In this document: one piece after another, positions 26,521 to 59,694 of the stretch | How the letters are laid out: each line of letters begins with the position of its first letter | Position numbering within the stretch: the stretch's first letter is position 1 | DNA from: an uncultured Bacteroidota bacterium | GTDB lineage: Bacteria > Bacteroidota > Bacteroidia > Bacteroidales > SZUA-534 | DNA: 64,000 nucleotides | Assembly (NCBI GenBank): GCA_946186925.1 | Contig: CAMHPA010000003.1 | Span: 1-64,000 of the forward strand | Direction of reading: 5' to 3' | Notes under the pieces: generated by a model | The model's input: only the letters and a program-made list of their open reading frames with translations | Told to the model about the DNA's origin: nothing | Database searches by the model: none | Program-made: the position numbers and the translations under genes

Positions 26521-27378
26521 ATGAAACATAACATACTCACAATCGGCATTTTATCTCTCACTTTCGCCACAGCCTGCACCGAAGGAATCGACATTGATTT
26601 GAACGAAGGCGACAACAACCGCCTGGTGGTTGCTGGTGAGATTACCAACGAGCCAGGCCCCTACAGCGTGCGGCTCACACGTTCCACTTCCTATTTCTAC
26701 AACCAGCCCGCACCAGCCGAGTTGGGCGCCAAGGTGACAATTTCCGACGGCGTGCAGACCCTTGTCCTGACCGATGACGACAACGACGGCACCTATTGGA
26801 CCGATTCTTCGGCTCGCGGCGTGCCTGGCCGCACCTATACGCTCGACATAGAGTTGACCAACGGCGAGACCTACACCGCCGTGGACCATATGCCTATCCC
26901 GAACCGCTTCGACACAATTTATTACGAGTACGTCAACGAGGAATACGGCCTGACTTTGCCCCAATACCACTATTTCTTCTACGCTTCGTTCACCGAGCAG
27001 AAGGGCGTCGATGATTGCTATATGTTTTACGTCTATTTCAACGACTCGTGCTATAACTCTAATTTCGAGGATGTTAAATGGGCATATGCCGGCAGCATTT
27101 ACGACGGGTGCGGTGTTTTTGAGAATATTCAGATATGCGATGCCAACGAGGATTCAATCCCCAAAAAGCCCGAAGCCCGCTTCGATTTGTTTTCAATCAG
27201 CCCCGAATACCGCCAATTTATTAAAGATATGAGCGATGAGACTTTTGGCAACGCCACAATCCTGCAAGGCCCGCCAGCCAACATTTACACCAATGTCAGC
27301 AACGGCGCGCTCGGATTCTTCAGCGCCAAATCAACCACCGAGCCGTATCGGTTGAAGTTGGAACCGAAGAAAGAATGA
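26521..27378 (+). CDS. DUF4249-family lipoprotein (copy 2)
   Basis: MKHNILTIGILSLTFATACTEGIDIDLNEGDNNRLVVAGEI; paralogue of 25433. Confidence 0.88.
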   Translation: MKHNILTIGILSLTFATACTEGIDIDLNEGDNNRLVVAGEITNEPGPYSVRLTRSTSYFYNQPAPAELGAKVTISDGVQTLVLTDDDNDGTYWTDSSARGVPGRTYTLDIELTNGETYTAVDHMPIPNRFDTIYYEYVNEEYGLTLPQYHYFFYASFTEQKGVDDCYMFYVYFNDSCYNSNFEDVKWAYAGSIYDGCGVFENIQICDANEDSIPKKPEARFDLFSISPEYRQFIKDMSDETFGNATILQGPPANIYTNVSNGALGFFSAKSTTEPYRLKLEPKKE

Positions 27379-31220: not shown

Positions 31221-34200
31221 ATGAAAAGAATGGCATTGAATTTCGGAGTAATGAGGAAAGCAAGATTGTTTGGTCTTGCGGTTTTGGCGGTTTTGTTGGG
31301 AGCGAATAATGATGTGTGGGGACAGGACATTACACTCAAGTATAATTACAAATCTGTTGCTGATGGCGATTGGGAAACATTGACCACTTGGGCGGATGAA
31401 TGGAATAATAATTTCACTCCCACAGTTGTTCCAGGCAATTCCAATAGTGTGGGACTTTGTGGTGGATTTACTGTAACACTTACATCACCGTCATCTGTTA
31501 AGAGAATGGACATAATGGATGGTAGTACCCTCAATGTTAACGCAAATCTTACGATTAACAGTAATGATGGAAGATTTGTTATAAAAGATGGAACAGTAAA
31601 TGTTGCTGCCGGTTGCACTTTAAGATTGGATAATAATGATAAATGCAGATTGTCTTTAAAGTACAATCCTACTATTAGTGGAGAAGGATTATTAGATATT
31701 GCGGGAAATTTAGGTGAAAACGATGGTACATTAACAACAAACATTAACACTATACTTTCAGGAGACAGTAAGGGTAGAAGCATTATTGTTGATGGAAAAG
31801 AATTTAAAACCACTAGGAACGGCAATATATTTAATAATGTCACTATAAACGAAAATGGATCATTCAATGTTGATAATGGTACTACTATTGCAGGCGCCTT
31901 GTCATTGTATGGCGGTACACTTCAGGTTGCAAGTGGCAAAACTTTAACGGCCACAACCAATCCGGTAAATGTTAGTGGAGATGCAACAATTTCAGGCTCC
32001 GCTTCAGGAACAGCGGCAACATTGGCAGCCAATGTGATAAACTTGGCAACTGATAAAACTTTGACAATTGATGGCATAGTTAATTTAAGTTCATCGGTAA
32101 CGTTCACGGGTTCGGGAAAACTAAAAATCGCCAACGGAGGAACTCTTACAATAGGAGGAACCCCAACCTTGCCCGAGAACATTACAATTGAAAATGGAGG
32201 AACGCTCAATTTAACCGGCGATGTAACTCTGTCGAACAATATTACGATAGAAGACGGTGGTGTGCTTAGTTTGGGTGGAGCGAATGTATATTTTGCCAAC
32301 GAAGATTTGTCCAAAACCGCTAATATAACAGGTGCGGGAACTATAAAATTCTCAAAAAATGGTGACGCTATTGTTCACAGATTCACTAATTGCACTGACG
32401 GAGTGACAGCAACATACCAATATAACAAGTGGGTTACTTACAATAATACTTGTACTCATATTATTCCTGGCTCATATTATAGTCTGACGGTAGATAATAG
32501 CAGTATTTCTTTGTGCGGCAATGTTACGGTGAACAATGAGTTCAAGCCGGCACAAAACATGGCATTTGACTGCGAAGGAGGCGCAAAGACATTTGTTGTT
32601 AAAAATGCCATCACAAACGGCAAGTCGTTAACATTCAACAACGTTAATGTTACATTGGGTAATAGCGAACGCGCAAGTACCATGGGTGTAACGGTTTCGC
32701 AACTCAACACAACCAATGGCGGCACAATCACTCTTGTAGAGGATGTTTTAGTGAATCAAGACGTTACCTTGAACGCTGCTATTGAATTGGAAAACAGCGA
32801 TTTGCATATAGGGGATGGTAAAAAACTCTACTTTGGTGAAAACGCCAATATTACGAGTGAAGGAACTGGAGAACTGTTCTTTAATGGTACATCAACCATT
32901 TACGGACTTACAGATTGCCTTGGAGTTGATGCAACATTTGGCGGAACTGGCAAAACCATTACCTACGATAATACTTGCTCTCGCATACTTGCTGGCACCT
33001 ACACTAATCTTACCACTAACAACAGTGGCACACTAACGTTGTGTGGAAATGTTGTAGTGAACGGAACATATAGATTGAATAGTGACATAATCATTAAAGG
33101 AAAAACTGGGAACGAGACAATAACCCACAATGGTCCTATAACCAACAATAGGAGTCTGACCTTACTGGTTAATGCTTTTGCAAACGGAACAAACAGTTTT
33201 TCAGTAAGCCGGTTCAACATTGGCAAGAACAACACATTCACAATAAACGGAGCCACTACAATAACCAGTAACGTCAATATTGATAGTACGGGTATAATAA
33301 ATGTTGCAGACGAAGCAACACTCACGTTTAATAACAACGCCACCTTCAACAATAGCACTAAAATTAATGTTGCAGACGGAGCAACTCTCACATTTAGTAA
33401 CAGTGCCACTTTCAACGCCAGCACAACTATTAGTGGTAATGGCAATGTATATTTCAATGCGTATGTTAAGGCTTCGGGCACAAAACTTACAACCTACCCA
33501 ACGGTTACTTTGGCTGATGTGGGTAGCAATATGCTAATCGACACCATTGAAGTTAAGGGTGGAACGTTTAACTATAACAGAAGTAACAATGTTAATAATC
33601 AGAGACCTATTCGCAGTTTGATTGTTGATGGCGGAACATTTGCTCTGAATATACCAAATTGGGCAAGTATGAATCTGACTGGGGCCGCCATTCTTAAATC
33701 GGGTACTTTGCAAATGGCCACTGGCAAAACCTTGAAACTCACCAATACGGATTGTGACACGCTGAAAGTTACCGGTACTGCCACAATTGATGGCAATGGA
33801 GTGATAGATGCGGTGGTGGCTGTGTATGCTAATGGCAATCTTACAATTGCCGAAAATATGACAATCCGCCAACTTGTGGTGGCAGAAGACAACGCTACAG
33901 TCAATGTGGCCAAAGATAAAACATTGACTCTCAACTCTCCATTGCAAGTAAACGGCAACGCAACCTTGAACACCGAAGCCGATTCCGAAACAAACATAAT
34001 ATTCGCTGATGGTCAGGAACGGATAAGTGTGCTGTCGGGCAAAACGCTTACCATTGGTAGCGGCAACATAAACATTTCCAACGCAATCATAACACTCGAT
34101 GGAGCATTGAACATAGAAAGCGCAGGCAGTCTTACGGTTGAGGCCACAAATGTGAACTTCACAAGGCTGTCGAGCCTTGACGGAGCAGGTGCAATGAATC

Positions 34201-37200
34201 TTACCAATTCGTCTCCAATCATTGGCTCGCTCACAACGTGCCTTGGCGGTAACGTGGTATTTGAGGAAAACTCTACCGTGACGTATGACGAAATGTGTAC
34301 GCGTATCATACCGTCAACATATTACAATTTAGTATTGAACACCGGTGTGGGGAAAAACATAACCTTATGTGATTTGGTAGAAGTAAGCAACGACCTGACT
34401 TGGAACAACGGCCGCATAGTGCTGAATGGAAATGAATTGAAATTGCATGGGGCCTACAGCGTAGGAGGCACTCCTGGTCTCGACCACATGGTGGTAGCCG
34501 ACGAAAATGGCAAACTCACATATACCGGCCTCACTGGCGACAATAATCTGTCATTCCCTGTAGGTTCATACAATAGCATATCGAAAACTTATATGTATGC
34601 CCCTGTTGACATTAGCGGAATAACTGCTGCTGCCGAATATTCTGTAAGTGTTGCAACCGTAGGTTCTGCAGTATCGGGTTTGTCAACCGACCTTAAGCGC
34701 TATTGGAATATAGAAACCACAGGTGCGCTTGGCGATGGCGGAACACTGACATTGCATTACGACTCAGCCGATGATGGTTTCAGTTATGGCTCAACTCTCA
34801 ATGATGAAGGCGTAGGCTACTGGAAGGCTTACAATGGAAGTTACGCTCTCGATGTGGTTAGTCCGTATGGTGGGCGTATAATAACAATAACTGCTGCTAA
34901 AATAAATGAAATAGACGGCTGCAGCATAAGCGGTACTTGGACGGCTGCTGAATCAACTAAAGTAGCAACATTGTACGCTCACTATACAGGAAGTTGGGAC
35001 AATCCTGATATTTGGACAACCGACCCGACGGGCAAAACTCATGTGAATCCAAACAATAAATATCCAAACAAATCATTTGATGCGGTTATATTGAGCCCGT
35101 ACACAGTCAGAAAACCCGATACCGAATCCAAACCATTTTCGGCTCGCACAGTGCAGATAGCCCTGGGCGCGACAATCGATGCCGGCACTCGCAGCCCCGA
35201 TTTCACCAATGTTTACGGACAAGGCACATTGCGTATCGATGGCGATTTCCCGACGGAAGGCAATTACAAAGAGTTCATGTCGAAGAACGGCGGCACAACC
35301 GAGTTCTACGGGCCACATCCGACCAATACTATTACTCAATATGAATATAACAATCTGGTACTCAATTATACAGGCTCGTCGGAAAGTACTTTGCCCGCCG
35401 ACAAACAGTTGCTTAACATAAACGGCAACCTGACACTGACACATGGTTCGCTGCACTTCAGCGCAAACGGACAAGCAATTCATGTGGGCGGCAACATTAA
35501 CATAGCAGAAGGCTGTGGTATTTATATTTACGAGGGCGGCGGCCATCACACCGACACATTGCAAGTTGGCGGCAGCCTTATAAACCATGGCACAATAAGA
35601 ATGACGCATCGCGTTGCCGCCAGTTATAACAACGCAATGGCTAAAAGCGACGAGGGCGATGCCGGCCGGGGCATTATCCGCTTTACAGGCGAGGAAGATG
35701 CACGCTTTGAGTGCTATGGCGAGACCCGTCTTGCACAACTCTTTCTAACCAAAGGAACCGACCACAATTCACGTCTGACGGTTTATTCCGATAGTTACGA
35801 CCATTTCAGCCTTTTAGGCAAGGCTAAAGATAGTTATCTCAACAAGGATTTCTCGACAAATATGTATGATATAACCAAATATACCAAACCAATAGGCTTG
35901 TGGTGCGGCACACTTGAACTAACGGGTAAGATACGCATACTTTCGCTGTCAGAAGGTGATAATAAAGAAGAAGACGGAATGATGTTCTTTATTCCGAGCA
36001 CAGCAGGAATGCATATTAACGGCCACGATGTGGAAGTATATGTAAGAACAGATGATGGTAAGGCAAAAGAAAGTTGGGCAAACTTCATATCATCTGGACA
36101 TTTCCGTATTGACGATGGAAAATTTGACACGCGGGCTGGTTCGGGTATGTCGTTTCGCGGAACAGCGTTTATGGAAATAAAGGGAGGAACAGTGCGTTGC
36201 GCGCAATTCCGCCCCGAAAAATCAGTATCCAATGGTATAGTTACTTATATACAATCAGGCGGAAAGGTGATTGTAGACGGACAGGGCGGTTTTGATGCTC
36301 CAATGCCGGCCTTCTATATGCCTTTCAGTGCCAATACATTTATTATGACTGGCGGAACCATCGAAGTGAGCAATTCTGGACGCAGCGGTAATTCATCAGG
36401 TTCTTCTTCCAAGGGCGGAGCCTTTGTTGTAGGATGCAACCCTTCGACAAGTAGTATTACAGGTGGCGAGATTATAGTGAACACTGGTCGTGTGTCAACA
36501 GGTAACAATCCTTGCAACAGCGATTACCTTATATCGTGCGCCATTCCGCTTTGGAATCTGACACTACGCAATGACCGTTTGTATTACAACAATAGTAATG
36601 TGGCTTATTCGTACACAGGACACAAACTAAGCGACCACGTTGGTAATGTGCAGAAAACGGATGTTAGTTTCACTTGCGCTACCGAAATCAAAAACGATTT
36701 GAGAATATGCGAAAATGTTTTGTTCAAAACAGATGGTAAATCGCTAACCATTGGCGGAAACCTTATAATTGAAGAGGGCGCTACTGTTGAGACTGGCGAT
36801 AACGAGATAATATTCAACGGCGGCCGTCTGCAGCGGCTTACCAACAACGGCTCTGTGAGCAGCACCGGTGGTGCAGGCTTCTACAGCCTTACGGTAAACA
36901 GCGGTACTCAACTGAAACCAGTACAGAACACAACGCTTTACGGCACACTCACTCTGCACGATGGAGCCGAATTGGTTGACGGTGTGTCAAACATAGTCTA
37001 TACAATCTACGGCAATGCCAATATTAGCGGTGCACACAAGGCTTCGGCATTCAACGGCAGCATTCTCTTTGCCGGCAATGGCAGCCAGACAATAGCGGGT
37101 TCCGGCAACGGACTGCTCAACAATGTCAACGTTAACAAATCGGGCGGCACGCTGCAACTCACAGCACCACGCCTTACTATCACCGGCGACCTGCGCCTGT

Positions 37201-40200
37201 TGAGCAATATTCGCTTCGACATTGGCAATAATAATCTCAACCTTGCCAACACTGCCAACATTTACACTGATGCATACACTGCCACAGCCTTCACTGCCGA
37301 CCGTATGATTATGACCAGTGGAGGCGCTTCGGCCGAAGGTTTGACACGGCAATACAGCAGTGCACGGAAAAGTATGTTGTTCCCGATAGGTTTGAACCAT
37401 GGCGGCACCTATTATTATCTGCCAGCCGAAATCAGTTATATGGAAGCAACAACTTTCGGAAGTGTGACAACCCGCGTGATTGACGGCGCACACCCGTTCA
37501 GCGATGCCGGCAACTCACTGCAATGCTACTGGATAACTGATGAGCAGGGTTTTGCAGGAGTCAACAATATCACTCAAAATTACTGGTACGCCACCACAGG
37601 GCTTGTTATGGGTACTCTTAGTAACTATGTACCGGCCCGCTACCACGCGGCAGAGTGGGCAACCGAAGGCACTGCCGGTGTGCACAAATCAGATGATGCA
37701 CGCTATTTCACTTTCGGCGGTGCTGAGTCGGCTTCAGGCCACTACACTTGCGGCGACAAGTCGGAATCAGCCTTTGCCGAGATTATGCATCTCTATTCGT
37801 CGAATCTTGCCAACGGCACCAACTGGGACAGCCCGCTGAGTTGGACAACCACCAAAGTAGGTGATGCTCCGACATTCGAAAACGCATCTATTACCTATAA
37901 ATATAATAGTGCAGACGGAGTGTTCCAGGCAGTTGACGCAAACGGCGACTTTGTCCCCGATGGTGCGACAATGGATTTGGCGGGTGCAGCCAATTATCTT
38001 GTTCCGACAGCCACAACAGCAGTAACCATTGGTTCGGGAGAGCACAACCACACCATTGTGATGAATGCCGACGGTCAGGGTTGCGCAAGCCTTACTTTGG
38101 CCGATGGTTCAACACTCGATATGGGCGCTACTGTCGACCACAATTTCCCGCTTGTCGATGTCGAGACATACGGTGCGGGCAAGTTGGTTATTGGTTCTGC
38201 CTACTTCCCAAGTGGCGACTTTGTGAAATTCCTTGGCTCAAACGGTGGTACGGTTGAGTACCAAAACAACAGCGGTGCTGCATTTGCAATGCCAACCATT
38301 AGCACCTGCCGCAATCTTGTCATCAGCGGTGCGGATGCCGTGGAACTGCCCAATGCCGACATTCATATTTACGACAGCCTGATGGTGAATGGGCAAGCGC
38401 AAATACTGGGTAGCACATCGCGTAACATTACTATTGACGGAAATCTCAATATTATATCCGGCCAAATGCTTATCAACTGCTCGACATCGCAAGCAATGGT
38501 TATAGGTGGCGATGTCAAGGTGGCAGAGGGCGCTGCGTTCGCTACTGGCGCTGATGGTGCTGATAATTTGGATCACAACATACAGATAGGCGGAAGTCTT
38601 GAAGCCAATGGCCAATTCCAACAATACAAAGGCGACAAGAGAAACCGTATCCTTCTGACATTTGTTGGTACCAACACGGCATACATTAAAGGTTCGGCCA
38701 AAATCACAGTCTGCACCATAACTTGCGACAAGGGTAGCGATATGTCATCATACCTGATTATTCAAAACAAAGAACTGAATTCTATCAGTAATAAAGATTT
38801 GCTGAACCTTAAGAACGGTACTTGTCAAATAGACATAGGTGACGGTAACACAATCAATCTTTCGACTCAAAGAAATGTTACAGTAGAGTCAACGGCTCGA
38901 TTGTCGATAAAATCAGGTACTTCGATAATTGGTTTTCATCCAAGTACTTATCATTTAATTCTGAATGGAGCGCTGGAAGTACTGGGAGGTAAACTTTATA
39001 TTGGCAAAAGCGAATCAGATTACAACCGATATGCATCCATCAAATACTCGCCGGCGGGCTTGCCATCAATAACCGTCAGCGGCGGCCAACTGATTGTGAA
39101 TGGTGCTATTCGCCGTCAGGACAAGCAGACGCTCGGCTCGCTCATCTACAACCAAACAGGCGGAGAGGTTATTGTGAAAGGCAAAAACAGAAAAGGTGAG
39201 AACAGCACGGACAACGACAATATGAACATCGGATTGTTCGAGGTGCTCAACACCGGTGAGTTCAACCTTTCGGGCGGAACATTGAATGTTTGTGCGGTTG
39301 ACTTTGTAAATGGTGCGAGCGGCACCGCTGCAGGCGACATATTCATTTGTCCTGCCAAATCGAGCAACAGCGGTGGCCAAATTGTTGTGGGCGACGGTTC
39401 AACCGTAACCGAACAGAAACTGATTACTAATGTCAGCATCAACAGTCTGAGAATTATGCCGCATGCAACACTTGGTGTGTACACCTATCCGATTGAGGCA
39501 AAGGATATTACTATTGAAGACTTTGGCGATTTGCAGTTGCGCGGTCATGCGCTAACCATTCGTCACGGGTTGTATAACAACAATGTGGGTGAAGTGGGTG
39601 ACGAAAACAAAGGTTTTGAAGTTGGCGACGCCAACCATACCACATACTTTACGGGCAGCAACATGGAGTACAAGGGCGCGAGCGGCAACCGCACATGCTT
39701 TGCCAACTTGCAGATTACCGGCTCAATGCAACTTGTGGGCAGCAATTCCGACATTCAAGTCAACAAGAAACTAACGCTCACTTCGAACACTGTAACCGAT
39801 AATGGTAACACCATAACCTTGATTGGCGACATTGAGAACAATGGTAAATTTGTAAGCAATGCTGAAACTGGAGGTATAAAATTCTTAGGAGAAGGAGCAT
39901 CTCAATACATTCGCGGCCGCGGTTTTGGCGAGTTTGGCTCGGTAACAGTGGCCAACCCCATGCGAGTTATTTTGAACACCAATGTTACCATAAACAAAAA
40001 ACTGACACTCGACGGTTTGTTGTATATCAACAATAGTCTGCTCACATTGGGCAAAAACGCAACGGTTGAGGCAGCCGGCAGTAGCCGCTTGGATGAAAAC
40101 CGAATGATACTTCTGAACGGAGCGCAGGATGACTATGGTGTTCGCAAGATACTTCCGGCAATACCGTCCGGCAGCAGTACCGAAATTCTTATTCCTATAG

Positions 40201-44972: not shown

Positions 44973-44994
44973 AACCTACAGCAGTCAGGAATAA

Positions 44995-45030
44995 CGAAAG
45001 CCGAATCAGCAATGGTTCGGCTTTCGTGTT
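44995..45030 (+). terminator. Terminator hairpin of giant gene 1
   Basis: CGAAAGCCGAA TCAGCAATGG TTCGGCTTTCG then TGTTTT. Confidence 0.8.
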
Positions 45031-45316
45031 TTGTTGAATTTGATGCGTAGGTAAACCAACGCCAATCATTATCAATGATGGTGTTGGCATTGCTTTTTGC
45101 GCTGAAAGTAACAGTTGTCAGCGCTGATTTAATGCATAATATGGTGCAATTCAGCCATAATGGTGTTTGATTAGCACACCAAAAACGACCTTTTATCCCG
45201 CTTTTTAGTTTAATAATCAAAAAAATGAGAAACAAAAGCACATATAATTCGTATTAAAAATCTGCGGGAAAATTTGTTCAGTAATTTTATGGGTTAAAAT
45301 TGAGGAGGGCTGGATT

Positions 45317-48300
45317 ATGAAACGTTTAGCATTGAATTTCGGAACAGCGGCAAAAGCCAGATTGTTGGGCCTTGCAGTTTTGTCTATCATATTTGGTAGT
45401 AGTGAATTGGCTTGGGGGCAAAAGAATTCTACATTTACATCAAAAAGCGATGGGTCTTGGGACACCCCTGCTATTTGGACACAATCAGTTTCTGGTCTTT
45501 TCCCTGGAAAATATATTTATGACAATGGCCAATATGGTAAATATGGAAGTGGTGTTGTAACTATTTCTCATAAAGTAACCATGAATGATATGAGCAGTTA
45601 TATTGGCAGCCGAACAAAAGCAAACTCATTGTATTCAAACATTTTTGATATTCAAAAGTTAACATTAAATGCCGGTGCGGAATTGATATTAAATAATGAC
45701 CTTTATATAAATGCTAGTGGACAAAATGATTGTTACAATTATAATGGAGGGTCATTAACAATTAATGAAGGATATAAATTACGAGTTGAAAAAAACTTTA
45801 TTTTAAATGCTGATCAGATTATTGATGGTGGGGGAACTCTTGAAATTGGACGTGCGGCAAATGGGAAAAACCATACATTGACGGCTAATGTTAATATAGA
45901 CATCAATATTGGCGACGATAATAGTCATAATAGTACAATAACTAATTTAAACCTTACTGCTAATAAAAATGTTACAATTAACCGAAATAATAACGTTTCA
46001 TTTAAAACTTTAATAATAAACTCTGGAGGAAGTTATAAGACAAATTATAACTCATCTAGCAATTCTCTAACCATGAATGGTGGCACATTAGAAATTGCCA
46101 GTAATGCCACATTGACAATCACCAACACTAGAAATCAAAGACAACCTCTTTATATTAACGATGATGCAACAATTATTGGCAATGGTACACTTGATGCCTC
46201 AGCAATAATTGTTGCACCTGGCAAAACTTTACACATTAATGGTGATATCAAATTAAATCAAAATATTACACTTGATGGCAACATCGCTGTTGCTGAGGGT
46301 AATACTTTAACAATCAGCGGCAGTCAAATAACCTTTACTGGGAATTCCCACTTTGGTGACAGCAATGGAATTATAGAATTTACCAACGACAACGTTTCAA
46401 TTCGCAGCGTTACGACATGTGTTGGAGGAAACTTTAAAAGTTTGAAAACAGTCACCTACGCTAAATCTTGCACATATATGTTGCCAGGATTGTTTAACAA
46501 CATTACTGTCAATACCGATCCAGGTAAAAACATTACGCTTTGCGGTGATGTTACGGCTTCTGGCACGCTCGCTTGGACTAACAAATCGCGGATAATACTT
46601 GACGGACACACAATGGATGTGGCTCTAATCACTTCCGGACAAGCGTTTGGCGATAACCACTTGTTTGTTGCAGGTACAGAGGGAAGCATCTTGAAATATA
46701 CAACAAATACAACAAGTGATGGCATCCTGACATTACCTATTGGCACATACAATAGCAACACAAAAAAATATGAGTACAGTCCAGTCATATTAGTGAGTGG
46801 AATAACTCGGCAAGCAGGTTCGTTTATTACCGTGCAAGTAGCCGACACGGCATATTCAGGCAAATCAACCGACCTTGAGCGCTGTTGGGAAATCAACGCT
46901 ACTGGAGTATCGCTCTCAAGTGCAAAAATAGAATTAACTTATGCTGTCGATGATGACGGATTAGGCTATGCCGCTGATGATATGCTTTGTGTTTACCACG
47001 ATGGAATACGAGTTGCTACTGGTGCAACCATAAACGGTGGCAGTCACATAATAACAGTGGATAATCCATCAAGCATTTCTGGCATTTGGACAGCCGCCGA
47101 ACCCGCCGAAATAATAACCCTATACTCACATCGCAGCGGAGATTGGGGCGATGCCACAATGTGGACCACCGACCCGACTGGCAAAACCGAAGTCGGACAA
47201 GCAGTGCCTGACAACTCATATAATGTTGTGATACTTAATGGTCACACTGTTGAAGCAAGCGGAGCAACAATGAATGCTCGCTCTGTTAAGATAAGCGCTG
47301 GTGCAACGTTAAATATGGGAAACAAAGCACAAGATCATAGATTAAAAAATGTGTATGGGCAAGGTATGTTGCGCATTGAGGGCGATTTTCCAACTAGCGG
47401 CAACTATAAATTGTTTGTGTCGCCTGATGGTGGAACAACGGAGTTTTATGGCAACCACACTAGCAACGATATACCAAACCAGTATGAATATAATAACCTT
47501 ATATTCGATTACGAAACGAATGTTACTCGCACCATAACCAAAAACTTGAAAATAAACGGCAACCTTACGCTGAAAAAAGGCTCGCTGAAATATACAAAAA
47601 CAAATCAGTCGATAACTGTAGGCGGTGACATTAAGATTGAGAGCGATGGCGGTATATATATATACGAGAGCGGTGGCGACAAAAGCCATGCCGACACATT
47701 GGTTGTGGGCGGCAACTTTGAGAACCATGGCGAAGTGCTGATGACAAAGCGCACAATTGACACGTATAGAACTTCGGGTGAGCCGCAGCAGAATGAAGGC
47801 GATAAAGGCCGTGGTGTTATTCGCTTTGTTGGCGAGCACAATGTCAATTTCTATTGTTACGGTACCACCAACTTAAGCCAGTTGATTGTTGACAAAGGAA
47901 CCGATGACACCTACCGCGTAACCTTATTTTCAAGTGCGGAAAACAATTTCGGACTTTTGGGCAAAGCCACAGATTTCTATACGGATTATGGTGATAATAC
48001 TCCAGACAACCCGGTTGCCATATACAAGCCGCTATGGTTGAAAAACGGTACTTTGGAACTCACAGGCAATTTGCACATATACTCATTGTCGGAAGGAGGA
48101 AATGACAACTTCTTTATTCCGCTTAACGGATGCTTGCATCTGAATGGCAGCAACGTTATAGTTGATGCTTGCCGAATTGCGAGTAGCAACGCTTGTCTTA
48201 TGCCTGCCGGAAAATTGATTATCGATGCAGGAACCTTTGACTGCAGCAAAAGTGCGGGAGCCGTATTTCGTAATACATCAGAAATTTACATTAACGGCGG

Positions 48301-51300
48301 CAAACTGAAAGGTTCGCAATTCCGCCCATCGCAATATGTCAGCAGCGGTAAAACCACATTTGTTCAAACCGGAGGTGAGGTGATATTTGATGGAAGTGGC
48401 GAATATAAAAACGGATACGCGACTTTCTATATGCCGTTCGATACTTATACTTTTAAGATGACAGGTGGAACGCTCACTATATCTGGTGCCATGAACAATA
48501 ATAACGAGGGTGACGGTGATGCGTTTGCTGTCAACTGCAACCCCGAGAACAGCAAGATAACAGGTGGTGAGATTATAATCATTAACAAACAATTCCAGAA
48601 GAAGAGCCACGGCATATCTTGCAGCATTCCACTATATAACTTGACATTATTGAATCCCAACAATTTGGCAAGTAGTACTGATAACTATAATTTTATATTC
48701 AAGGACTACAACGGAACTGTGAACAGAGGCAATACTCATATAACAATACCGATGGCGGAAATTCAGATTCTGAACAACCTGACAATCGGTGACAATGTAA
48801 CATTCAATGCCGATGGTAGGAATGTGCTTATTGGCGGCAACCTGACAATTGCCCCAACCGCAAAGGTATATTTGGGAAATAACGAGGTGAAATTTAACGG
48901 CGACGGCTCGCATATTCAGCAGTTTACCTCCACGACTACCGATAAGGTTAGAAATGTAAACAATGCTATAGGCTACAACAATCTCACGATAGCGGATGGC
49001 GCCGATGTGCAGATAAACAGTGACATAATAGTAAATGGCTTGTTCACCTTGGGTGATGGAGCAATCATGCGCGATGGTGCTGCGAATACTTACACAATAA
49101 GGAAAAATGCCGAAATAAGCGGCACACATTTGAAACCCGCTTCAGGTGCTGGCAAAATATTGTTTAACGGTGAGACTCCTACCATAACCGGCAACGGGCA
49201 TGGCTCGCTCAACAATGTGAATGTGCAACTTGCCAGTGGTGTTTTGCAAATAGATGCGCCAAATCTTACCATAACTGGTGATTTGCGTCTGCTCAACAGC
49301 ACCGCCAACAACTCAGGACGCGTGTTTGTGATGGGAACCAGCAAACTGACATTCGACAGCGGTGCGAACATATTCACCGATGAAGCCAATGGCAGGGATT
49401 ATGGTGAAGACAAGTATATATACACCAGTAATTTGGCTTCAAGCGGAGGTGTGGCCAGAGTGTACAGTGAAGATTCAAAAACATTCACTTTCCCAATCGG
49501 AACGCGAAGCGGAAATACTTTCTATTATACGCCCGCAACAATAACCTATAGAGAGGCTGCCGAGTATGGTGAGGTCACAATACGCCCGGTGAAAAGTGCT
49601 CACCCTTTAATGGGGAATACATTAGATGCATTGGAATACTATTGGGCGACAACAGAAACGGGTTTCAGCGGAGTACGCTCCAACGATGTTAACCAAGTAT
49701 ATGTTTTTGGAAACTACAACTTTGTTAAGGGAGTCACAACGACCTACGTGCCGGCACGTTATTACAATGCCGAATGGCAGAAAGGCACAACGTCTGGTAT
49801 GAGACCGACTCAGAACGCATTTGAGATGACCACCGGGTCGGCCAATGGCGATTACACTTGCGGTAATCCTGAAAATTCGTTTATCGACATTGTTAAGATG
49901 TACTCGTCAAATTGGGTAACCAGCCATGGCAACCAAGGCGGATGGTCAGACCCTCTCAGCTGGTCGGCCGATTCTGTTAATGGCGCTCCTAGTTTCCACA
50001 TTGGCGAGACATACTACAGATACAATGAATCGGCAAGCGAATTCCAACCATTTGATTTAGCGGCTGATGATTTTACTACCGGGGCGGCAATTTCTCCAAC
50101 TGCCGCACCAATACCTACAGCCACAACGGCAGTGTATATTGGCTCGGCCAATCACCCGCATACCATAACTATGAGTTATAACGGCCAAGCCTGCGCAAGC
50201 TTGCGCATTGAGCCAGGGGCGACATTGGATTTGGGAGTTTTCACTGGGCATAAATTCTCACTTGTAGTAGTTGACGAGACTGCGGAAGAAGGTGCGGGAA
50301 CGTTGAAAATAAGTTCAACAGGAAATGAAGGCCCTGTTGTATTCGACAATGTGAAAGCTGCTAGTTTCCCGGCTGGTGACTTTGTGAAATTTCTTGGCGA
50401 GCACGGTGGCACAGTTTATTATTATGGTAATAACAGCAATACCTTCTATATTCCTTCTGTATCAGAAAGTGATTTGGCTTTAACCAATTATAACAATTTG
50501 ATAGTAGGAGGAAACACTATCGGGCACAGAGTGCGTACTCCTTTGGACATTGATGTTACAATCTATAAGGATTTGACAGTAGATGGTCACATGCACACAG
50601 CTTATACAAATAAAGGGAGACATACTATAACAATATATGGAAACGTTAATGTAAAGGCCAACAGTGAAATATATACACGTGAAGCGGGTTATAACACACC
50701 TCAGCATTTTGTGATATATGGGGATGTTAATATTGCAACGGGTGGCATATGGCGCACTTCGGGTTATTCCACCACTACGCATAAAATAGACATCTATGGA
50801 AGTCTTAATGCTACAGGTAGATTTAACACATTTTCAACGGATGATACTAGAGGCTCATTTAAAGCAATAACCACATTTATGGGTACAGACACATCTCGTA
50901 TCACTGGCACAGGAGATGTGCACCTCTATACTCTTGTTTGCGATAAGGGCATAGACGCGTCTTCTCTGCTTATTTTACAAAATCCCCACATCACGTCTGA
51001 CCATGATGCCGGAGAGCCATTCCTTACACTAAAACACGGCACATTCCAGGTTGATTTCCCGAGTGATGAAAATGAGATAGTGCTTACCAGTGAGTGTGAT
51101 TTGACTATTGAAACGCCCACTTGCTTATCAGTAAAGTCTGGTACTGTAAATGTTGCCAACAGCAATGCTGATTTTGGTGTGATACTCAATGGCTCAATTG
51201 ATGTGCAAGGCGGCATTCTTAACATTGGTAATGCGGCAAACGACAAGTCAAACAGCATCATATACTCGGCAACCAGCACACCGACCATAACTGTCAGTGG

Positions 51301-54300
51301 CGGCCAAATAAATGTAAATGGCATTGTTCGCCGCACAACAGGTACTCGTTATGGCACGCTATTCTACAGGCAGAGCGGCGGCGAGGTCGTTATAAAAGGC
51401 CGCAACCGAAATGCCACTACCGCTCCTGATGGTAATGCCGCACTTGAAATCATGAACGACGGCTGCGAGTTTACCACAACCGGCGGCAAACTGACATTGC
51501 TGGCAAGCGGAGGAAACGAGACTTTTGGTGACCTTCTTATCCGTCCGACAACAACAAGTTGCACCGGAGGTGAGATTGTCATTAACGGCGGTGCGGAGCA
51601 AAAAATACTATCGGCAGCATCGCTGCACAAAATAACGGTTAAAAACGGCAGCCAACTTGATGTTTATTCACACCCGATAACCGCTGATTCTATAGTTATC
51701 GAAGATAATGCAATATTTAACTCGCGTGGTTTCGATCTGACTATCAGACAGGCGATGGTCAATAGTAATTTATCGTCTGCCAGTGGTATAGACAAAGGCG
51801 GATTCCTGCCAGGAAGCATAACCCAAACCACATACTTTACGGGTACAAACGTGGCGTTTATGGGCGCAAGCGGCAACAAGACCAATTTCGCAAATGTTGA
51901 GATAAATGGCCGGTTCAACCTTGTTGGCAACACCTCGAATATGTTTGTAAACAAGAATCTTGTCCTTGCCAACGGAAAAGTATCTGACAACGGAAGCACT
52001 ATTTATTTGGTTGGTAATCTGGATAACTACGGCACATTTGAGAGTATTGAGGCTACTGGTGGCATCGATTTCTGCGGAGCCGAAACCGAGCAGTACATTA
52101 TTGGTGTTGGAACAGGTTCATTGGGTTCTGTAACCATAGATAACCCGCACAAAGTGTTTATGTATAATGATGTCCGTATCAACAACAAACTGACACTCAA
52201 CGCAATATTGTATGCCGATATTTATCTTCTGACATTGGGCGAAAATGCGACGGTTGCAGGTGATTTAAGTGCCTCAAGTATGATTCTACTGAACGGTGCC
52301 CAAGAGGACAAAGGTGTTAAGAAGATTATTCCATCCGGAACATCAGACTTCACTTTCCCGATAGGTGTCGACGGAAGTTATACTCCCGCCAGATACAATT
52401 TTTCTAAAAACACATCGTCAAAAGAAACCGCAATAACTGTAAAGACCATCAACTATCTGAATAAAAACCTGTCAATAGACCCGGACTGCTATCTGAACTA
52501 TTTCTGGGCAGTAACCACCGACGGCTTTGATGAGGAGAACGATGAAAAGAATGATACTAATCCGTACTTCACAGTAGAACAAACCTACACCTATCCTGAC
52601 GATACCGAGACGCACTTTACCGCAAACGGTTATGAAGAAAGTGAAATGCTGCCCGAATATTTGCGGACTCTCGGTGATTATGAATGGATTGATTTGCGTC
52701 CGGGTGCTGTTGTTGACGCATCAGCCAACACAATAAGTTTTCCACCCTTCGGACATATTGAAGGTGAATATACAGCGGGTGTCACTCATAGTACCATCTA
52801 TACGGCCTTGCCTATTCTATACTCAAAACAAAACGGTCCTTGGCATGAGGAAACAACATGGCAAATTAAAGATGAATTGGGTAATTGGGTGCCATTTACA
52901 GGCACAGTCAAAGAAAACCCTGTGCATATCAGCAGCGGCCATAGAGTAACTGTTGATGCGAACAATACAAAATCGTATTGCTTGTACTTTGACGGCGCAA
53001 GCAGCAAGCTTGATTTGAAACAAACCATTGGCAACGACTTTGGCCGTGTGTATGGTGCTGGAACCCTTATTATGGAGGCAACTTCAACACATGACTATAT
53101 GTTCCCCGCCGGAAACTTTGACAAATTCCTGCTATATCCAGAGAGCGTTGTCGAATTTAGCGGTGATACGTACGGAACTCTTCCTGCAAGTCCGGGTAAC
53201 GCATCACGCCCATTGCCTAATGTAGTGCTTTCAGGCTCAGGCGCAAAAAAACTGCCGGCAGGAACTGCAGAGGTGATAAATGGCTCACTGACAATAGGTG
53301 CCACATCGACACTCGACAACACTGCCAACAATACCAAAATCATTATTAAAGGCGATTGGATCGACAATAATCCAACAACGGGTTTCATTGCAGGAAGTTC
53401 GATAGTTGAGTTTAATGGCGATTCAACCCAGCGCATCAACATAAACAATAATGAAACGGTGTTCCCATATTTGGTTATTAACAGCACTGGAGCAAAAAGC
53501 GATAGCATTATTGTCGGCGATTGCGATCAGAACACACCTATCAACAAAGAATTCAAAGTAAGCAAGGCGCTGACGCTAACCAAAGGACACGTTTACACAA
53601 CGTTCGAAAACTGCCTGGTCCTTTCTGAGCCTACAACTAAGGTCAACGGCGGTAGCGTTGATGCCTTTGTCGATGGCCCGCTAGGTAAGCAATTAAATGT
53701 CTATGGCAACTTCACATTTCCGATAGGCAACGACAAACGATTCGCTTCAACTTATATAAGCGACGCAAGCACTGCCGGTATTTGGAAGGTTGAATATGTT
53801 AATCGCGATCCTGCAACCGATGGGTACTATAGAGAAAAAACATATCTGACAGAACCTATCACTGAGGTAAGCAGCAATGAGTATTGGAACATTTATCCGC
53901 CAACAGCGTCGGCGAAAGCCAACATCAAGTTACGTTACGACAACAAATCGTTCCCGTATATAAACACCACTGCTAAACTGAAGAAACTCACAATGGTAAG
54001 TTTCCCAACAGATGACAAGTGGGTTGAAATTAAAAACGGAGGCGCTTCCGGCAGTGTGTCGTCTGGCACAATTACAACAACAGAAGCACAAACTGTTGAC
54101 AGCAAACATTACACATTCGGTTATTTGGGTACTACTGCCAAGATAGACACCAGGGTTACGGATCATTACTATATCTGCGACGGAAACGAAGAAAACGTCG
54201 TAATACCCGTGGTACTTTCCGGCACGCCAAAATACACATTGCAGTATAGCATTGATGGCGGTGCCCCAATCGCCATCAGCGACATAACCGGCAACACTTG

Positions 54301-57163
54301 CAATATCACTCTGAGCGGAAGCGAATTGGGTGGTTATAAAGACACACCGTACGTAATCAGTCTTGTTAGCGTGAGTGACCCAAGTGGCACTGGTGACGTA
54401 TACAGCGATGTGGCCTACGTAACCGTTTGGTACAATGCAACTCCTGTAATTACTGGCGATGACAGAGTCGGACGTACAGACGCAAGAGAGTATTCTGTCG
54501 CAACATCTACTTTTGATAAGTCATTCTTATGGGAATGGTATTCAGGCAATACAAAAATCACCTCGGGAACTAAATCTGTACAAATATCGCCAAATAACTC
54601 ATTATCTGCCTCAACAACTACAATCACATTTGTTAGCAATCCAATCGTGGGTACTGGTACTGATAATGGCGAATATCGGCTGAAAGTAACAAACACATAC
54701 AATACAGATGCAGGCGGGACATGTTCGGCAAGCAAAACAATGACAGTAACAGTTCAAGAGAAACCTGCACCCAAAATTGTCGGTGACTTGGCTGTATGTG
54801 AAGGCGACTCTAGAACATATTCAACAACGTATGTGTCTGGCCATACTTACACTTGGAATGTTAGTGGTGCAGAATCGTATTCAACTTCAGCTAATGAATG
54901 TACAGTTAAATGGGGAAACAGCGGAACTGGTGAAGTGACAGTAACTGAGAGAAATATAGCTCTCAGCACAACTACAGCCAAAGCAACAGTGTATATAAAT
55001 AAAGCCGCCGTTTTGGGAGAGATTGAAGTGCCAAAAGAGGTCTGCTATAACACACGCGGTCAAGTTTCCATCATAGCATCAAACAGCACGCTGCAATATG
55101 TGGTGTGCGATGCTTCGGATGAAAGTGTGATTTATGGCTCGATTAATGGTGATGGCAGCGACAAAACCATTGATTTGGATGCACTTACAGAGAATACCAC
55201 TGTTATGGTGAAAGCCCAGAACGAAGGTTGTGCCGCTCCTTCGACCAATTATCCAATATCAGTATTTGCCAATCCAGGCTTCGCCGTCGAAGAAATTGAT
55301 GATTTGTATGTTGGCAAACCTGCCGATATAAAGTGGCAACAAACCACAACATCTTTCAGTAAAATCAACTATAAGTTTACCAATATAAGCGGAAGTAATT
55401 CTATTGGAACAACAATGGTTATAGACCCATCAGGAATAAACACTACTACCGTAGATGTTGTCGCTGATGCCGAAGAGATAAGAGGTATACTGACTGTAAC
55501 GGAGACTGATACAAAATTGGAATGCCATGCTGATTATGACATTGTAAAAACAGTATCTCAAGATTACCTGTGGAATGGAGAAACGTCAGAGGATTGGAAT
55601 GAACCTGATAACTGGTGGTCGGGCTCAACACCGACAACTGCCAAAAATGTACGTATATTGGAAGGCGCAACTAACATGCCGGAAGTGTCTGCCGCTGCCA
55701 ACGCCAAAGACATTATTATCGGTAGTGGTGCAAGTGTTACTGTATCGGGCAACACACTGACTGTGGCTGGTAATATAGAGAATGAAGGATCGTTCACTGC
55801 CACGGACGGAACGGTGGCGTTCTCTAGCGGAACACACTCGGTTTCTGGAGCCAACACGTTTGCCAATATCAATAATATTGGTACAGTGAACTTCAGCAAC
55901 ACCAACACAGTAAATGGGGACATTACCAACACAGGAACCATCAATGGCAGCATAAGGCTGGCTGGCAGCAACTCGCAATCAATCAACGGGAAAGGCAATT
56001 ATTCTAATGTCGAGATAGACAATGCAAAAGGCGTTTCTGTCAATGAAGACATAAAAATAGACGGAAATCTTGCTCTCCAAAACGGAACAGTAACAATTGC
56101 CAGTGATAAGGAGATTGTATTCGGAACAGCAGCAAGCACCACTTGCAACGACGCTTCGGCTTCAGCCTATGTTGAAGGATCGATGAAAAAATACGGTAGC
56201 TCTGAGTTCACATTCCCGACAGGACACAATGGTAATCGCGCAAAAGTTGGCATTACTCCAATTGATGCATCTGGTGACACTTATTTCACTGCGAAATACA
56301 ATTCAGTCGCACCTGATGATGCGGAAGAAATACCAGAATCAAAACGCAACAGCGGACTTGAGCGTGTAAGCAGCCTGGAAAGTTGGGATATTTTCGGAAC
56401 GTCAGACAGTAAAATCAAACTTTACTGGGAAAACAAAGACGATGACTATATTACCAACTTAAAAACGTTAGTCGTGGCCCATTACAATAGCATTTTAGGC
56501 AAATGGGAAACTGTAAAATGCGAAGGTTCTGACGGTGATGGCAGTAAAGGTTGGATATTAACCGGAAAAGTATCTTCATATAGCCCATTCACATTTGGCT
56601 CAACCGTAAAAGAGGATAATCCTCTCCCCGTCACCTTCATCGCCTTCACAGGCCGCCAAGATGGCAACAGCGTTGTGCTCGAGTGGGCAACACTTTCGGA
56701 GAAAGACAACGACTACTTCGAGATTGAGCGCTCGGTTGACGGCGTCAACTATGTGACTATCGGATATGTTGATGGTGCGGGAAATTCGACAGGTCGCATC
56801 GATTACAATTTTGCCGACAACGCGCCAGAGGGTGATTACTCTTACTATCGTCTGTCGCAAGTTGATTTCGACGGCACACGCGAGTATGCCGACAAGGTAG
56901 TTGCCGTCTTCTATACGGGCGATGAGACTGGCGGATTGACAGTTGTACCGAACCCAACTGACGGGCGGTTCAGGGTCAGCATAGGTTTCTCAATGGCAGG
57001 CGGAGTTGTCCAGCTGCTCTCGCAGACAGGCAATGTGGTACGCACCGTCAACGTCGACAGCTTCGATGCCACAATCGACATCAGCGACCTGCCGAGCGGC
57101 ATCTACCTACTACGATTTGTATCCGACAGCAAGATATTGCAGCAAAAGGTTGTGAAATATTGA
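45317..57163 (+). CDS. Giant T9SS-secreted modular beta-helix surface protein 2 (3948 aa), paralogue of giant 1
   Basis: Signal peptide MKRLALNFGTAAKARLLGLAVLSIIFGSSELAWGQ; same module series as giant 1; sorting domain ending LPSGIYLLRFVSDSKILQQKVVKY; GAGGAGGG ribosome-binding site upstream. Confidence 0.93.
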   Translation: MKRLALNFGTAAKARLLGLAVLSIIFGSSELAWGQKNSTFTSKSDGSWDTPAIWTQSVSGLFPGKYIYDNGQYGKYGSGVVTISHKVTMNDMSSYIGSRTKANSLYSNIFDIQKLTLNAGAELILNNDLYINASGQNDCYNYNGGSLTINEGYKLRVEKNFILNADQIIDGGGTLEIGRAANGKNHTLTANVNIDINIGDDNSHNSTITNLNLTANKNVTINRNNNVSFKTLIINSGGSYKTNYNSSSNSLTMNGGTLEIASNATLTITNTRNQRQPLYINDDATIIGNGTLDASAIIVAPGKTLHINGDIKLNQNITLDGNIAVAEGNTLTISGSQITFTGNSHFGDSNGIIEFTNDNVSIRSVTTCVGGNFKSLKTVTYAKSCTYMLPGLFNNITVNTDPGKNITLCGDVTASGTLAWTNKSRIILDGHTMDVALITSGQAFGDNHLFVAGTEGSILKYTTNTTSDGILTLPIGTYNSNTKKYEYSPVILVSGITRQAGSFITVQVADTAYSGKSTDLERCWEINATGVSLSSAKIELTYAVDDDGLGYAADDMLCVYHDGIRVATGATINGGSHIITVDNPSSISGIWTAAEPAEIITLYSHRSGDWGDATMWTTDPTGKTEVGQAVPDNSYNVVILNGHTVEASGATMNARSVKISAGATLNMGNKAQDHRLKNVYGQGMLRIEGDFPTSGNYKLFVSPDGGTTEFYGNHTSNDIPNQYEYNNLIFDYETNVTRTITKNLKINGNLTLKKGSLKYTKTNQSITVGGDIKIESDGGIYIYESGGDKSHADTLVVGGNFENHGEVLMTKRTIDTYRTSGEPQQNEGDKGRGVIRFVGEHNVNFYCYGTTNLSQLIVDKGTDDTYRVTLFSSAENNFGLLGKATDFYTDYGDNTPDNPVAIYKPLWLKNGTLELTGNLHIYSLSEGGNDNFFIPLNGCLHLNGSNVIVDACRIASSNACLMPAGKLIIDAGTFDCSKSAGAVFRNTSEIYINGGKLKGSQFRPSQYVSSGKTTFVQTGGEVIFDGSGEYKNGYATFYMPFDTYTFKMTGGTLTISGAMNNNNEGDGDAFAVNCNPENSKITGGEIIIINKQFQKKSHGISCSIPLYNLTLLNPNNLASSTDNYNFIFKDYNGTVNRGNTHITIPMAEIQILNNLTIGDNVTFNADGRNVLIGGNLTIAPTAKVYLGNNEVKFNGDGSHIQQFTSTTTDKVRNVNNAIGYNNLTIADGADVQINSDIIVNGLFTLGDGAIMRDGAANTYTIRKNAEISGTHLKPASGAGKILFNGETPTITGNGHGSLNNVNVQLASGVLQIDAPNLTITGDLRLLNSTANNSGRVFVMGTSKLTFDSGANIFTDEANGRDYGEDKYIYTSNLASSGGVARVYSEDSKTFTFPIGTRSGNTFYYTPATITYREAAEYGEVTIRPVKSAHPLMGNTLDALEYYWATTETGFSGVRSNDVNQVYVFGNYNFVKGVTTTYVPARYYNAEWQKGTTSGMRPTQNAFEMTTGSANGDYTCGNPENSFIDIVKMYSSNWVTSHGNQGGWSDPLSWSADSVNGAPSFHIGETYYRYNESASEFQPFDLAADDFTTGAAISPTAAPIPTATTAVYIGSANHPHTITMSYNGQACASLRIEPGATLDLGVFTGHKFSLVVVDETAEEGAGTLKISSTGNEGPVVFDNVKAASFPAGDFVKFLGEHGGTVYYYGNNSNTFYIPSVSESDLALTNYNNLIVGGNTIGHRVRTPLDIDVTIYKDLTVDGHMHTAYTNKGRHTITIYGNVNVKANSEIYTREAGYNTPQHFVIYGDVNIATGGIWRTSGYSTTTHKIDIYGSLNATGRFNTFSTDDTRGSFKAITTFMGTDTSRITGTGDVHLYTLVCDKGIDASSLLILQNPHITSDHDAGEPFLTLKHGTFQVDFPSDENEIVLTSECDLTIETPTCLSVKSGTVNVANSNADFGVILNGSIDVQGGILNIGNAANDKSNSIIYSATSTPTITVSGGQINVNGIVRRTTGTRYGTLFYRQSGGEVVIKGRNRNATTAPDGNAALEIMNDGCEFTTTGGKLTLLASGGNETFGDLLIRPTTTSCTGGEIVINGGAEQKILSAASLHKITVKNGSQLDVYSHPITADSIVIEDNAIFNSRGFDLTIRQAMVNSNLSSASGIDKGGFLPGSITQTTYFTGTNVAFMGASGNKTNFANVEINGRFNLVGNTSNMFVNKNLVLANGKVSDNGSTIYLVGNLDNYGTFESIEATGGIDFCGAETEQYIIGVGTGSLGSVTIDNPHKVFMYNDVRINNKLTLNAILYADIYLLTLGENATVAGDLSASSMILLNGAQEDKGVKKIIPSGTSDFTFPIGVDGSYTPARYNFSKNTSSKETAITVKTINYLNKNLSIDPDCYLNYFWAVTTDGFDEENDEKNDTNPYFTVEQTYTYPDDTETHFTANGYEESEMLPEYLRTLGDYEWIDLRPGAVVDASANTISFPPFGHIEGEYTAGVTHSTIYTALPILYSKQNGPWHEETTWQIKDELGNWVPFTGTVKENPVHISSGHRVTVDANNTKSYCLYFDGASSKLDLKQTIGNDFGRVYGAGTLIMEATSTHDYMFPAGNFDKFLLYPESVVEFSGDTYGTLPASPGNASRPLPNVVLSGSGAKKLPAGTAEVINGSLTIGATSTLDNTANNTKIIIKGDWIDNNPTTGFIAGSSIVEFNGDSTQRININNNETVFPYLVINSTGAKSDSIIVGDCDQNTPINKEFKVSKALTLTKGHVYTTFENCLVLSEPTTKVNGGSVDAFVDGPLGKQLNVYGNFTFPIGNDKRFASTYISDASTAGIWKVEYVNRDPATDGYYREKTYLTEPITEVSSNEYWNIYPPTASAKANIKLRYDNKSFPYINTTAKLKKLTMVSFPTDDKWVEIKNGGASGSVSSGTITTTEAQTVDSKHYTFGYLGTTAKIDTRVTDHYYICDGNEENVVIPVVLSGTPKYTLQYSIDGGAPIAISDITGNTCNITLSGSELGGYKDTPYVISLVSVSDPSGTGDVYSDVAYVTVWYNATPVITGDDRVGRTDAREYSVATSTFDKSFLWEWYSGNTKITSGTKSVQISPNNSLSASTTTITFVSNPIVGTGTDNGEYRLKVTNTYNTDAGGTCSASKTMTVTVQEKPAPKIVGDLAVCEGDSRTYSTTYVSGHTYTWNVSGAESYSTSANECTVKWGNSGTGEVTVTERNIALSTTTAKATVYINKAAVLGEIEVPKEVCYNTRGQVSIIASNSTLQYVVCDASDESVIYGSINGDGSDKTIDLDALTENTTVMVKAQNEGCAAPSTNYPISVFANPGFAVEEIDDLYVGKPADIKWQQTTTSFSKINYKFTNISGSNSIGTTMVIDPSGINTTTVDVVADAEEIRGILTVTETDTKLECHADYDIVKTVSQDYLWNGETSEDWNEPDNWWSGSTPTTAKNVRILEGATNMPEVSAAANAKDIIIGSGASVTVSGNTLTVAGNIENEGSFTATDGTVAFSSGTHSVSGANTFANINNIGTVNFSNTNTVNGDITNTGTINGSIRLAGSNSQSINGKGNYSNVEIDNAKGVSVNEDIKIDGNLALQNGTVTIASDKEIVFGTAASTTCNDASASAYVEGSMKKYGSSEFTFPTGHNGNRAKVGITPIDASGDTYFTAKYNSVAPDDAEEIPESKRNSGLERVSSLESWDIFGTSDSKIKLYWENKDDDYITNLKTLVVAHYNSILGKWETVKCEGSDGDGSKGWILTGKVSSYSPFTFGSTVKEDNPLPVTFIAFTGRQDGNSVVLEWATLSEKDNDYFEIERSVDGVNYVTIGYVDGAGNSTGRIDYNFADNAPEGDYSYYRLSQVDFDGTREYADKVVAVFYTGDETGGLTVVPNPTDGRFRVSIGFSMAGGVVQLLSQTGNVVRTVNVDSFDATIDISDLPSGIYLLRFVSDSKILQQKVVKY
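56933..57160 (+). other. T9SS type-A C-terminal sorting domain (giant 2)
   Basis: LTVVPNPTDGRFRVSIGFSMAGGVVQLLSQTG...DLPSGIYLLRFV...QQKVVKY. Confidence 0.9.
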
Positions 57164-59362: not shown

Positions 59363-59540
59363 AAACGTTCACGTAGATTAAGTGCGTTAAAAAAGCCTTC
59401 CAGCACAACTTCTGAAAGGCTTTGGCAAGAAATCTTTTCTTCAACTCTCAAATACGGTTTCAATATTATGGATTTTTCCGTTAACGCGCAAGTTTTTTTT
59501 GAGATTTGTTTAAATGCCATTTAATCGTCAATCCAAACGT

Positions 59541-59694
59541 CTAACTCCTAACTTCTAACTCCTAACTTCTAACTTTTAACTTCTGACTTCTAACTTTTAA
59601 CTTCTAACTTTTAACTTCTAACTTTTAACTTCTAACTTTTAACTTCTAAATCCTAACTCCTAATTTCTAACTCCTAATTTCTAACTCCTAAATA
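59541..59694. repeat. 22-unit heptamer array (consensus YTAACTY)
   Basis: 154 nt read exactly as 22 consecutive 7-mers such as CTAACTC/CTAACTT/TTAACTT. Confidence 0.95.

Follow-up and report, generated by a model that had tools for sequence, protein, structure and literature searches.

What kind of protein is encoded by two adjacent genes that together take up 25.6 kb, 40% of the DNA analysed here? The window, i.e., the whole stretch of 64,000 nt under study, opens contig C3 of a 3.32-Mb draft genome (98.8% complete). The earlier note, made from the letters of the window alone, had described two neighbouring giant T9SS cargo paralogues, here named P1 and P2, and had proposed a giant adhesin or fibrous surface layer. 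The reality of the two frames, their anatomy, their relatives and their possible function are considered below.

Two giant and anciently separate paralogues

The two frames of 4583 and 3948 aa lie exactly where the earlier note placed them, and no internal stop interrupts either one (Table 1). The length of P1 is counted from an ATG, the mechanical ORF opening at a TTG 33 bases upstream. Frames of this size, encoding proteins of 424-488 kDa, are far beyond chance. An assembly artefact is ruled out by intact giant frames in independent genomes, including single-contig ones. The two proteins share 41% identity over 3,857 columns, in support of the claimed paralogy. A recent tandem duplication is also ruled out, as the copies fall in separate old clades (I and II), each of which is found singly in other species.

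Export and sorting

Read by eye, both proteins start with signal peptides that match each other as had been claimed, MKRMALNFG...LAVLAVLLGANNDVWGQ in P1 and MKRLALNFG...LAVLSIIFGSSELAWGQ in P2. At the other end, the type A sorting domain (CTD) noted earlier is recognised by TIGR04183 (33.1 bits in P1 and 34.7 in P2, cut-off 23) and by PF18962 (28.3 and 30.6 bits, cut-off 27). About 40 type A CTD matches occur in the genome, which also possesses the genes of the T9SS translocon SprA (contig C17), the PorU sortase (contig C27, 1085.8 bits) and the PorV shuttle (contig C27, 427.9 bits). In Porphyromonas gingivalis, PorV acts as the shuttle of type A cargo, which PorU then cleaves and attaches (PMC11205867). 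If this scheme holds here, the C-terminus would be the anchor and the N-terminus the distal end.

Modular anatomy

Module borders were drawn with profiles built from 17 full-length homologues (Table 1). The profiles of m2 and m3 match each other's segment (1.7e-50 and 9.9e-56), and m4 resembles the beginning of both. The module order of P1 is that of P2 plus a second copy of the N-terminal "tip" module, which accounts for its extra length, and a 66-bp tandem duplication within this tip suggests one route of tip growth. In the homologues of the genus the shaft is near-constant at ~3,350 aa. The tip ranges from 349 to 2,172 aa in the alignment, and the other modules are nearly fixed in length.

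Table 1. Positions in the window of P1, P2 and their modules.
Feature	Position	Strand	Basis or remark
P1, giant T9SS type A cargo, clade I	31221..44972	+	4583 aa
P1 signal peptide, ~aa 1-35	31221..31325	+	sequence; resembles that of P2
P1 tip module copy 1, aa 40-622	31338..33086	+	tip profile, 4.6e-78
P1 tip module copy 2, aa 684-1248	33270..34964	+	tip profile, 3.4e-110
66-bp tandem duplication in P1 tip copy 2	33296..33424	+	22 codons, about one helix rung
P1 module m2, aa 1250-2185	34968..37775	+	module profile
P1 module m3, aa 2190-3140	37788..40640	+	module profile
P1 module m4, aa 3141-3589	40641..41987	+	module profile
P1 Ig/PKD-like region, aa 3595-4056	42003..43388	+	profiles, relatives
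P1 module m5, aa 4057-4403	43389..44429	+	module profile
P1 terminal cassette, FN3-like + type A CTD	44430..44969	+	TIGR04183 at aa 4512-4582
P2, giant T9SS type A cargo, clade II	45317..57163	+	3948 aa
P2 signal peptide, ~aa 1-35	45317..45421	+	sequence
P2 tip module, aa 36-600	45422..47116	+	length and sequence vary between species
P2 module m2, aa 601-1525	47117..49891	+	G8-like start
P2 module m3, aa 1526-2495	49892..52801	+	module profile
Low-identity block within P2 m3, codons 1561-1880	49997..50956	+	close-orthologue comparison
P2 module m4, aa 2496-2950	52802..54166	+	module profile
P2 Ig/PKD-like region, aa 2951-3412	54167..55552	+	profiles, relatives
P2 module m5, aa 3413-3768	55553..56620	+	module profile, structure model
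P2 terminal cassette, aa 3769-3948, FN3-like + type A CTD	56621..57160	+	TIGR04183 at aa 3877-3947

Searched whole against Pfam and NCBIfam, P1 and P2 yield the CTD only, beside a sub-threshold G8 domain; the sorting tag is the sole part of the giants that the profile libraries name with confidence. The module starts with a W..W motif pointed out earlier turn out to be G8-like: PF10162 scores 21.3 bits on P2, just below its cut-off of 22.9, and matches five of 19 relatives at E 0.01 (best 9.6e-8). The Ig/PKD-like region is likewise borne out by the relatives (PKD_6, 2e-10; Ig_7, 1e-6). No binding domain or ligand of P1 or P2 was identified.

Predicted fold

AlphaFold returns for m2 a confident, repetitive all-beta model (pLDDT 87, pTM 0.79). 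In the C-terminal piece, m5 is mostly at a pLDDT of 90 or above, and the interdomain joints are looser (pTM 0.44). The m2 profile has no match among the PDB sequences, and a fold search with the m2 model against the PDB gives nothing significant (best E 0.011). The weak fold matches are mostly beta-helices (Ag43, tailspikes and autotransporter passengers), which, together with the strand periodicity, suggests that m2 is a beta-helix. Assuming this fold, ~3,270 helix residues in rungs of 22 residues would make ~150 rungs, or ~70 nm, to which the Ig region adds.

Distribution and genomic setting

Relatives of P1 and P2 are carried by all ten congeners searched. The congener loci that were read contain intact giants of 3,600-5,600 aa, except in G010, where the frame runs off the contig end. 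Across the order, the m2 profile matches 73 of 295 genomes and 55 of 183 genera, two of these genomes (G212 and G231) being single contigs. Among the matches listed, the strong ones lie mostly in open frames of 2,300-5,100 aa. Giants in neighbouring frames of one contig, read by eye from the table of m2-profile matches, are found in no fewer than eight further genomes (G055, G111, G155, G160, G212, G250, G297 and G299), and G004 also carries adjacent giants, making this a recurrent arrangement. The named relatives whose match covers the full length of the query are Salinivirgaceae metagenome genomes, with a best segment at 36-86% identity; the labels of three of these genomes read sheep rumen, water buffalo omasum and yak omasum. 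A homologue is also present in a cultivable relative, Pseudochryseolinea flava (L032). Judged from these relatives, the host is most likely a ruminant-gut Salinivirgaceae. The same genome harbors a third paralogue, P3, of 3639 aa and clade III (L005:2617-13536, minus strand), and a distant giant of 5025 aa (L006:2917-17994, plus strand) whose clear relationship is confined to the region near its C-terminus.

The neighbouring genes examined are of the pyrE, zinc-ribbon protein, NIF3, FKBP, CotH and Lnb types, with pyrE and CdsZ/NIF3 types nearest to the pair on either side. A conserved neighbourhood was rejected: in the congener loci read, the genes flanking the pair have no giants alongside, and CdsZ-NIF3 adjoins other genes. 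As these flanking genes are not shared, the giants occupy different sites in different species. PADLOC reports no defence match, and there is no structured RNA within the window.

Other features of the window include two adjacent, similar ORFs (25433-26338 and 26521-27378) that start with MKHNILTIGIL and have a lipoprotein-like N-terminus. The NIF3-like and FKBP genes are separated by an array of some 22 AACTTCT heptamers (59536-59691), possibly a length-variable spacer or promoter. Repeats of 48 and 144 bp (61796-62069) in the CotH-kinase gene (61633-63585, minus strand) encode PMPGMDSAGGFGAFPF-type repeats.

Mosaic evolution of the giant genes

The tree of the bodies resolves four clades: I (P1 and G002), II (P2, G004b, G001 and G007), III (P3 and relatives) and IV. 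Between orthologues, the dN/dS of the body is ~0.16, denoting purifying selection. DNA identity was profiled per 40-codon window between close orthologues, in data that, at the genus level, are largely metagenome assemblies, on which the mosaicism rests. The body DNA of such orthologues is up to 98-100% identical, whereas the tip and a terminal FN3+sorting cassette of ~180 codons are not. Most of the P2-G004b alignment is at 75-100% identity, but the first 360 codons are at 56-76%, most of codons 1561-1880 at 52-75%, and the end at 67-76%; the terminal cassette of P2 is replaced relative to that of its orthologue. The bodies of G003a and G008a are 95-100% identical nearly throughout; codons 41-600 drop to 44-92% (mostly below 80%), and the end to 63-78%. 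In G001 and G007, most of the body is 100% identical, but the first 240 codons are at 43-58% and codons 1641-1880 at 52-70%.

The tandem paralogues G004a and G004b display the opposite relation, with 43% amino acid identity in the body and 92% DNA identity in the cassette, over 546 bases up to the stop codon; the cassettes are homogenised within this one sister species. AU tests reject a shared cassette clade for P2 and G004b (p 0.013) and for G003a and G008a (p 0.00018), as well as a body clade for G004a and G004b (p 1.7e-6), p-values that are optimistic because the groups were picked after the pattern had been seen. In every pair tested, cassette and body differ in their identity at fourfold-degenerate sites (Fisher p 4e-4 to 6e-12), so protein-sequence conservation alone is not a sufficient explanation. 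In 12 genomes searched, cassette DNA matches giant genes only; in its own genome, there is one further match of 33 bases. Between P1 and P2 the DNA is 79% identical in the cassettes vs ~53% in the body, a weaker signal than in G004.

A reverse mosaic was also observed. Two giants of clade III (L113:1914-12734 and L112:2021-12817) occupy the same site, among neighbour proteins ~99% identical; their DNA is 52-85% identical over most of the body and 90-99% in stretches near the C-terminal end.

Proposed function

P1 and P2 are probably giant non-enzymatic, rod-like surface proteins, and most likely C-terminally anchored adhesins with an exchangeable tip. The signal peptide seen in each sequence would carry the chain over the inner membrane. 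The type A CTD would then route the cargo via the SprA translocon to the PorV shuttle, and PorU, if it acts as in P. gingivalis, would cut off the CTD and join the new C-terminus to surface lipopolysaccharide. The stalk is built of the serial G8-like/beta-helix modules together with m5 and the Ig region; its length is near-constant and may reach tens of nanometres. Anchoring at the C-terminus would leave the N-terminal module as the distal tip, and no other part is as variable in length, module duplication included. This tip may touch a surface, a partner cell or a feed particle. Recombination among the giant genes, visible as mosaicism, would exchange the terminal sorting cassette, a single block of the shaft, and the tips. 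The outer face would thereby be diversified, and the export tags within one genome would, in at least one species, stay alike.

The proposal of a giant adhesin or fibrous surface layer thus fits the anatomy, given the repetitive all-beta modules, the C-terminal anchor and the variable distal end, and adhesion or surface coating would be the most likely role. A fibrous or S-layer-like coat, in which abundant structural proteins are packed alongside one another to form a protective layer, would share the anatomy of an adhesin and agree with the presence of at least two giants per genome. Exchange at the predicted distal end would suit escape from recognition as well as adhesion, the tip then varying under phage, protozoan or immune pressure and not with adhesion targets. 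Tips of 349 to 2,172 aa are, however, ill-suited to a regular lattice, and no S-layer family of Pfam or NCBIfam is matched, leaving both the coat and this source of tip variation with a low, though appreciable, probability. It is quite unlikely that the giants are cryptic polysaccharide-active enzymes, with at least one beta-helix module acting on plant or host glycans in the manner of tailspikes and polysaccharide lyases. Such activities are frequent on beta-helix folds, tailspike glycosidases are among the weak fold matches of m2, and several congeners come from ruminant forestomachs. Searches of Pfam, NCBIfam and the PDB, however, gave no enzyme domain, as the earlier note had anticipated: no enzyme family of Pfam or NCBIfam was found in P1, P2 or their relatives, beta-helix polysaccharide lyase and hydrolase profiles included, and m2 has no PDB match at E 0.001. 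Across the 17 homologues, the only invariant charged residues of m2 are K860 and D1253 (those of m3 are K1877, R2006, R2031, D2072 and D2224). The lack of a family match and the two invariant charged residues in m2 together make an enzyme less likely. A grappling-hook-like device such as GhpA, in which T9SS fibres form hooks that catch prey or partners, is very improbable. GhpA, too, is exported by T9SS and is close to 5,000 aa in size, and the best fold match of the C-terminal region is the GhpA base (9fly, E 1.8e-15, TM 0.15), with further GhpA fragments lower in the list. This match, however, sits among titin, complement and numerous other Ig proteins, with low TM-scores, and so probably reflects generic Ig chains; neither the m2 profile nor that of the C-terminal region finds a GhpA chain among the PDB sequences, and the shaft module m2 is without significant PDB match. 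Membership in the GhpA family, which had a fold match and nothing from sequence, was rejected.

For the mosaic pattern alone, chimeric or cross-contaminated metagenome assemblies are an unlikely source, the giants then evolving as ordinary genes. The genus-level data are of the kind in which such errors could arise, and G001 and G007 (L102:5703-17471 and L103:4593-16415), from two species, are a suspicious case: more than 1,000 codons are 100% identical in DNA vs 88% in the flank on one side, as expected from recent transfer or from cross-contamination of metagenome bins. Against this explanation, G004a and G004b are carried by a single contig, and a collapsed repeat is excluded by the 8% of bases at which the two cassettes differ. 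In addition, the break falls at the same PLPV edge in several species pairs, and the pattern persists at fourfold sites.

Comparison with known systems

SprB, HagA and GhpA are the closest known systems, none of the three being a demonstrated relative by sequence. SprB is a type B CTD cargo with its partner gene SprF alongside. In contrast, P1 and P2 have a type A C-terminus (TIGR04183) and no match to the type B model TIGR04131 in the NCBIfam scan, and no SprF/PorP gene is next to the pair. By description, the likeness lies in a very large T9SS-secreted surface protein, SprB being a cell-surface gliding adhesin of Flavobacterium johnsoniae (PMC11205867); the adhesin role is that of SprB. GhpA of Aureispira, which assembles into heptameric hooks, is a giant T9SS-secreted fibre of ~5,000 aa with Ig-type folds in its C-terminal part, whereas the shaft here is G8-like/beta-helix. 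HagA, Kgp and RgpA of P. gingivalis are mosaic T9SS adhesins diversified via domain rearrangement and allelic exchange (PMC5266723). They share with the giants the type A sorting and repeated modules (adhesin modules in their case), but possess cleaved-adhesin modules and proteinases, as compared to beta-helix modules, no proteinase and sorting-cassette exchange here.

Two further groups offer likenesses of fold or module. The G8-domain proteins (PF10162; e.g., CEMIP, TMEM2 and PKHD1) resemble the module starts, through the profile matches of the relatives and below the cut-off for P2 itself; in contrast to them, the giants are bacterial T9SS cargo with serial modules. The type V autotransporter beta-helix adhesins Ag43 and Fap2 recall m2 by a weak fold resemblance, and the giants by a rod-like display at the outer membrane, as predicted here. 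Their fold matches, however, are non-significant (E 0.012 and 1.3), and the giants use T9SS export, have no translocator barrel and are predicted to be anchored C-terminally via PorU.

No publication describing these giants turned up in the literature that was searched. Giant T9SS surface proteins (SprB, GhpA and HagA) and mosaic T9SS adhesins in P. gingivalis were already known. As far as the searched literature shows, the module family and its breadth in the order would be new, as would the rule of a constant stalk with a variable tip and the exchange of sorting cassettes.

Significance

Tentatively, the giants may form an order-wide system of exchange at two ends, in which a constant stalk bears swappable specificity tips and FN3+sorting cassettes are gene-converted among paralogues, so that the genes serve as recombination platforms for surface diversification. 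The likeness of cassettes within a genome would then perhaps fit the tags of the cargo to the local machinery of PorV and PorU. At 424-488 kDa such proteins are expensive to make; the genus nevertheless retains at least one, under purifying selection between orthologues, and about one in four of the order's sampled genomes has relatives of the modules. Should the tip be the surface that makes contact, its exchange would be a readable record of attachment targets or of escape, and the homogenised sorting cassettes would be a natural test of the coevolution of T9SS sorting domains with their machinery.
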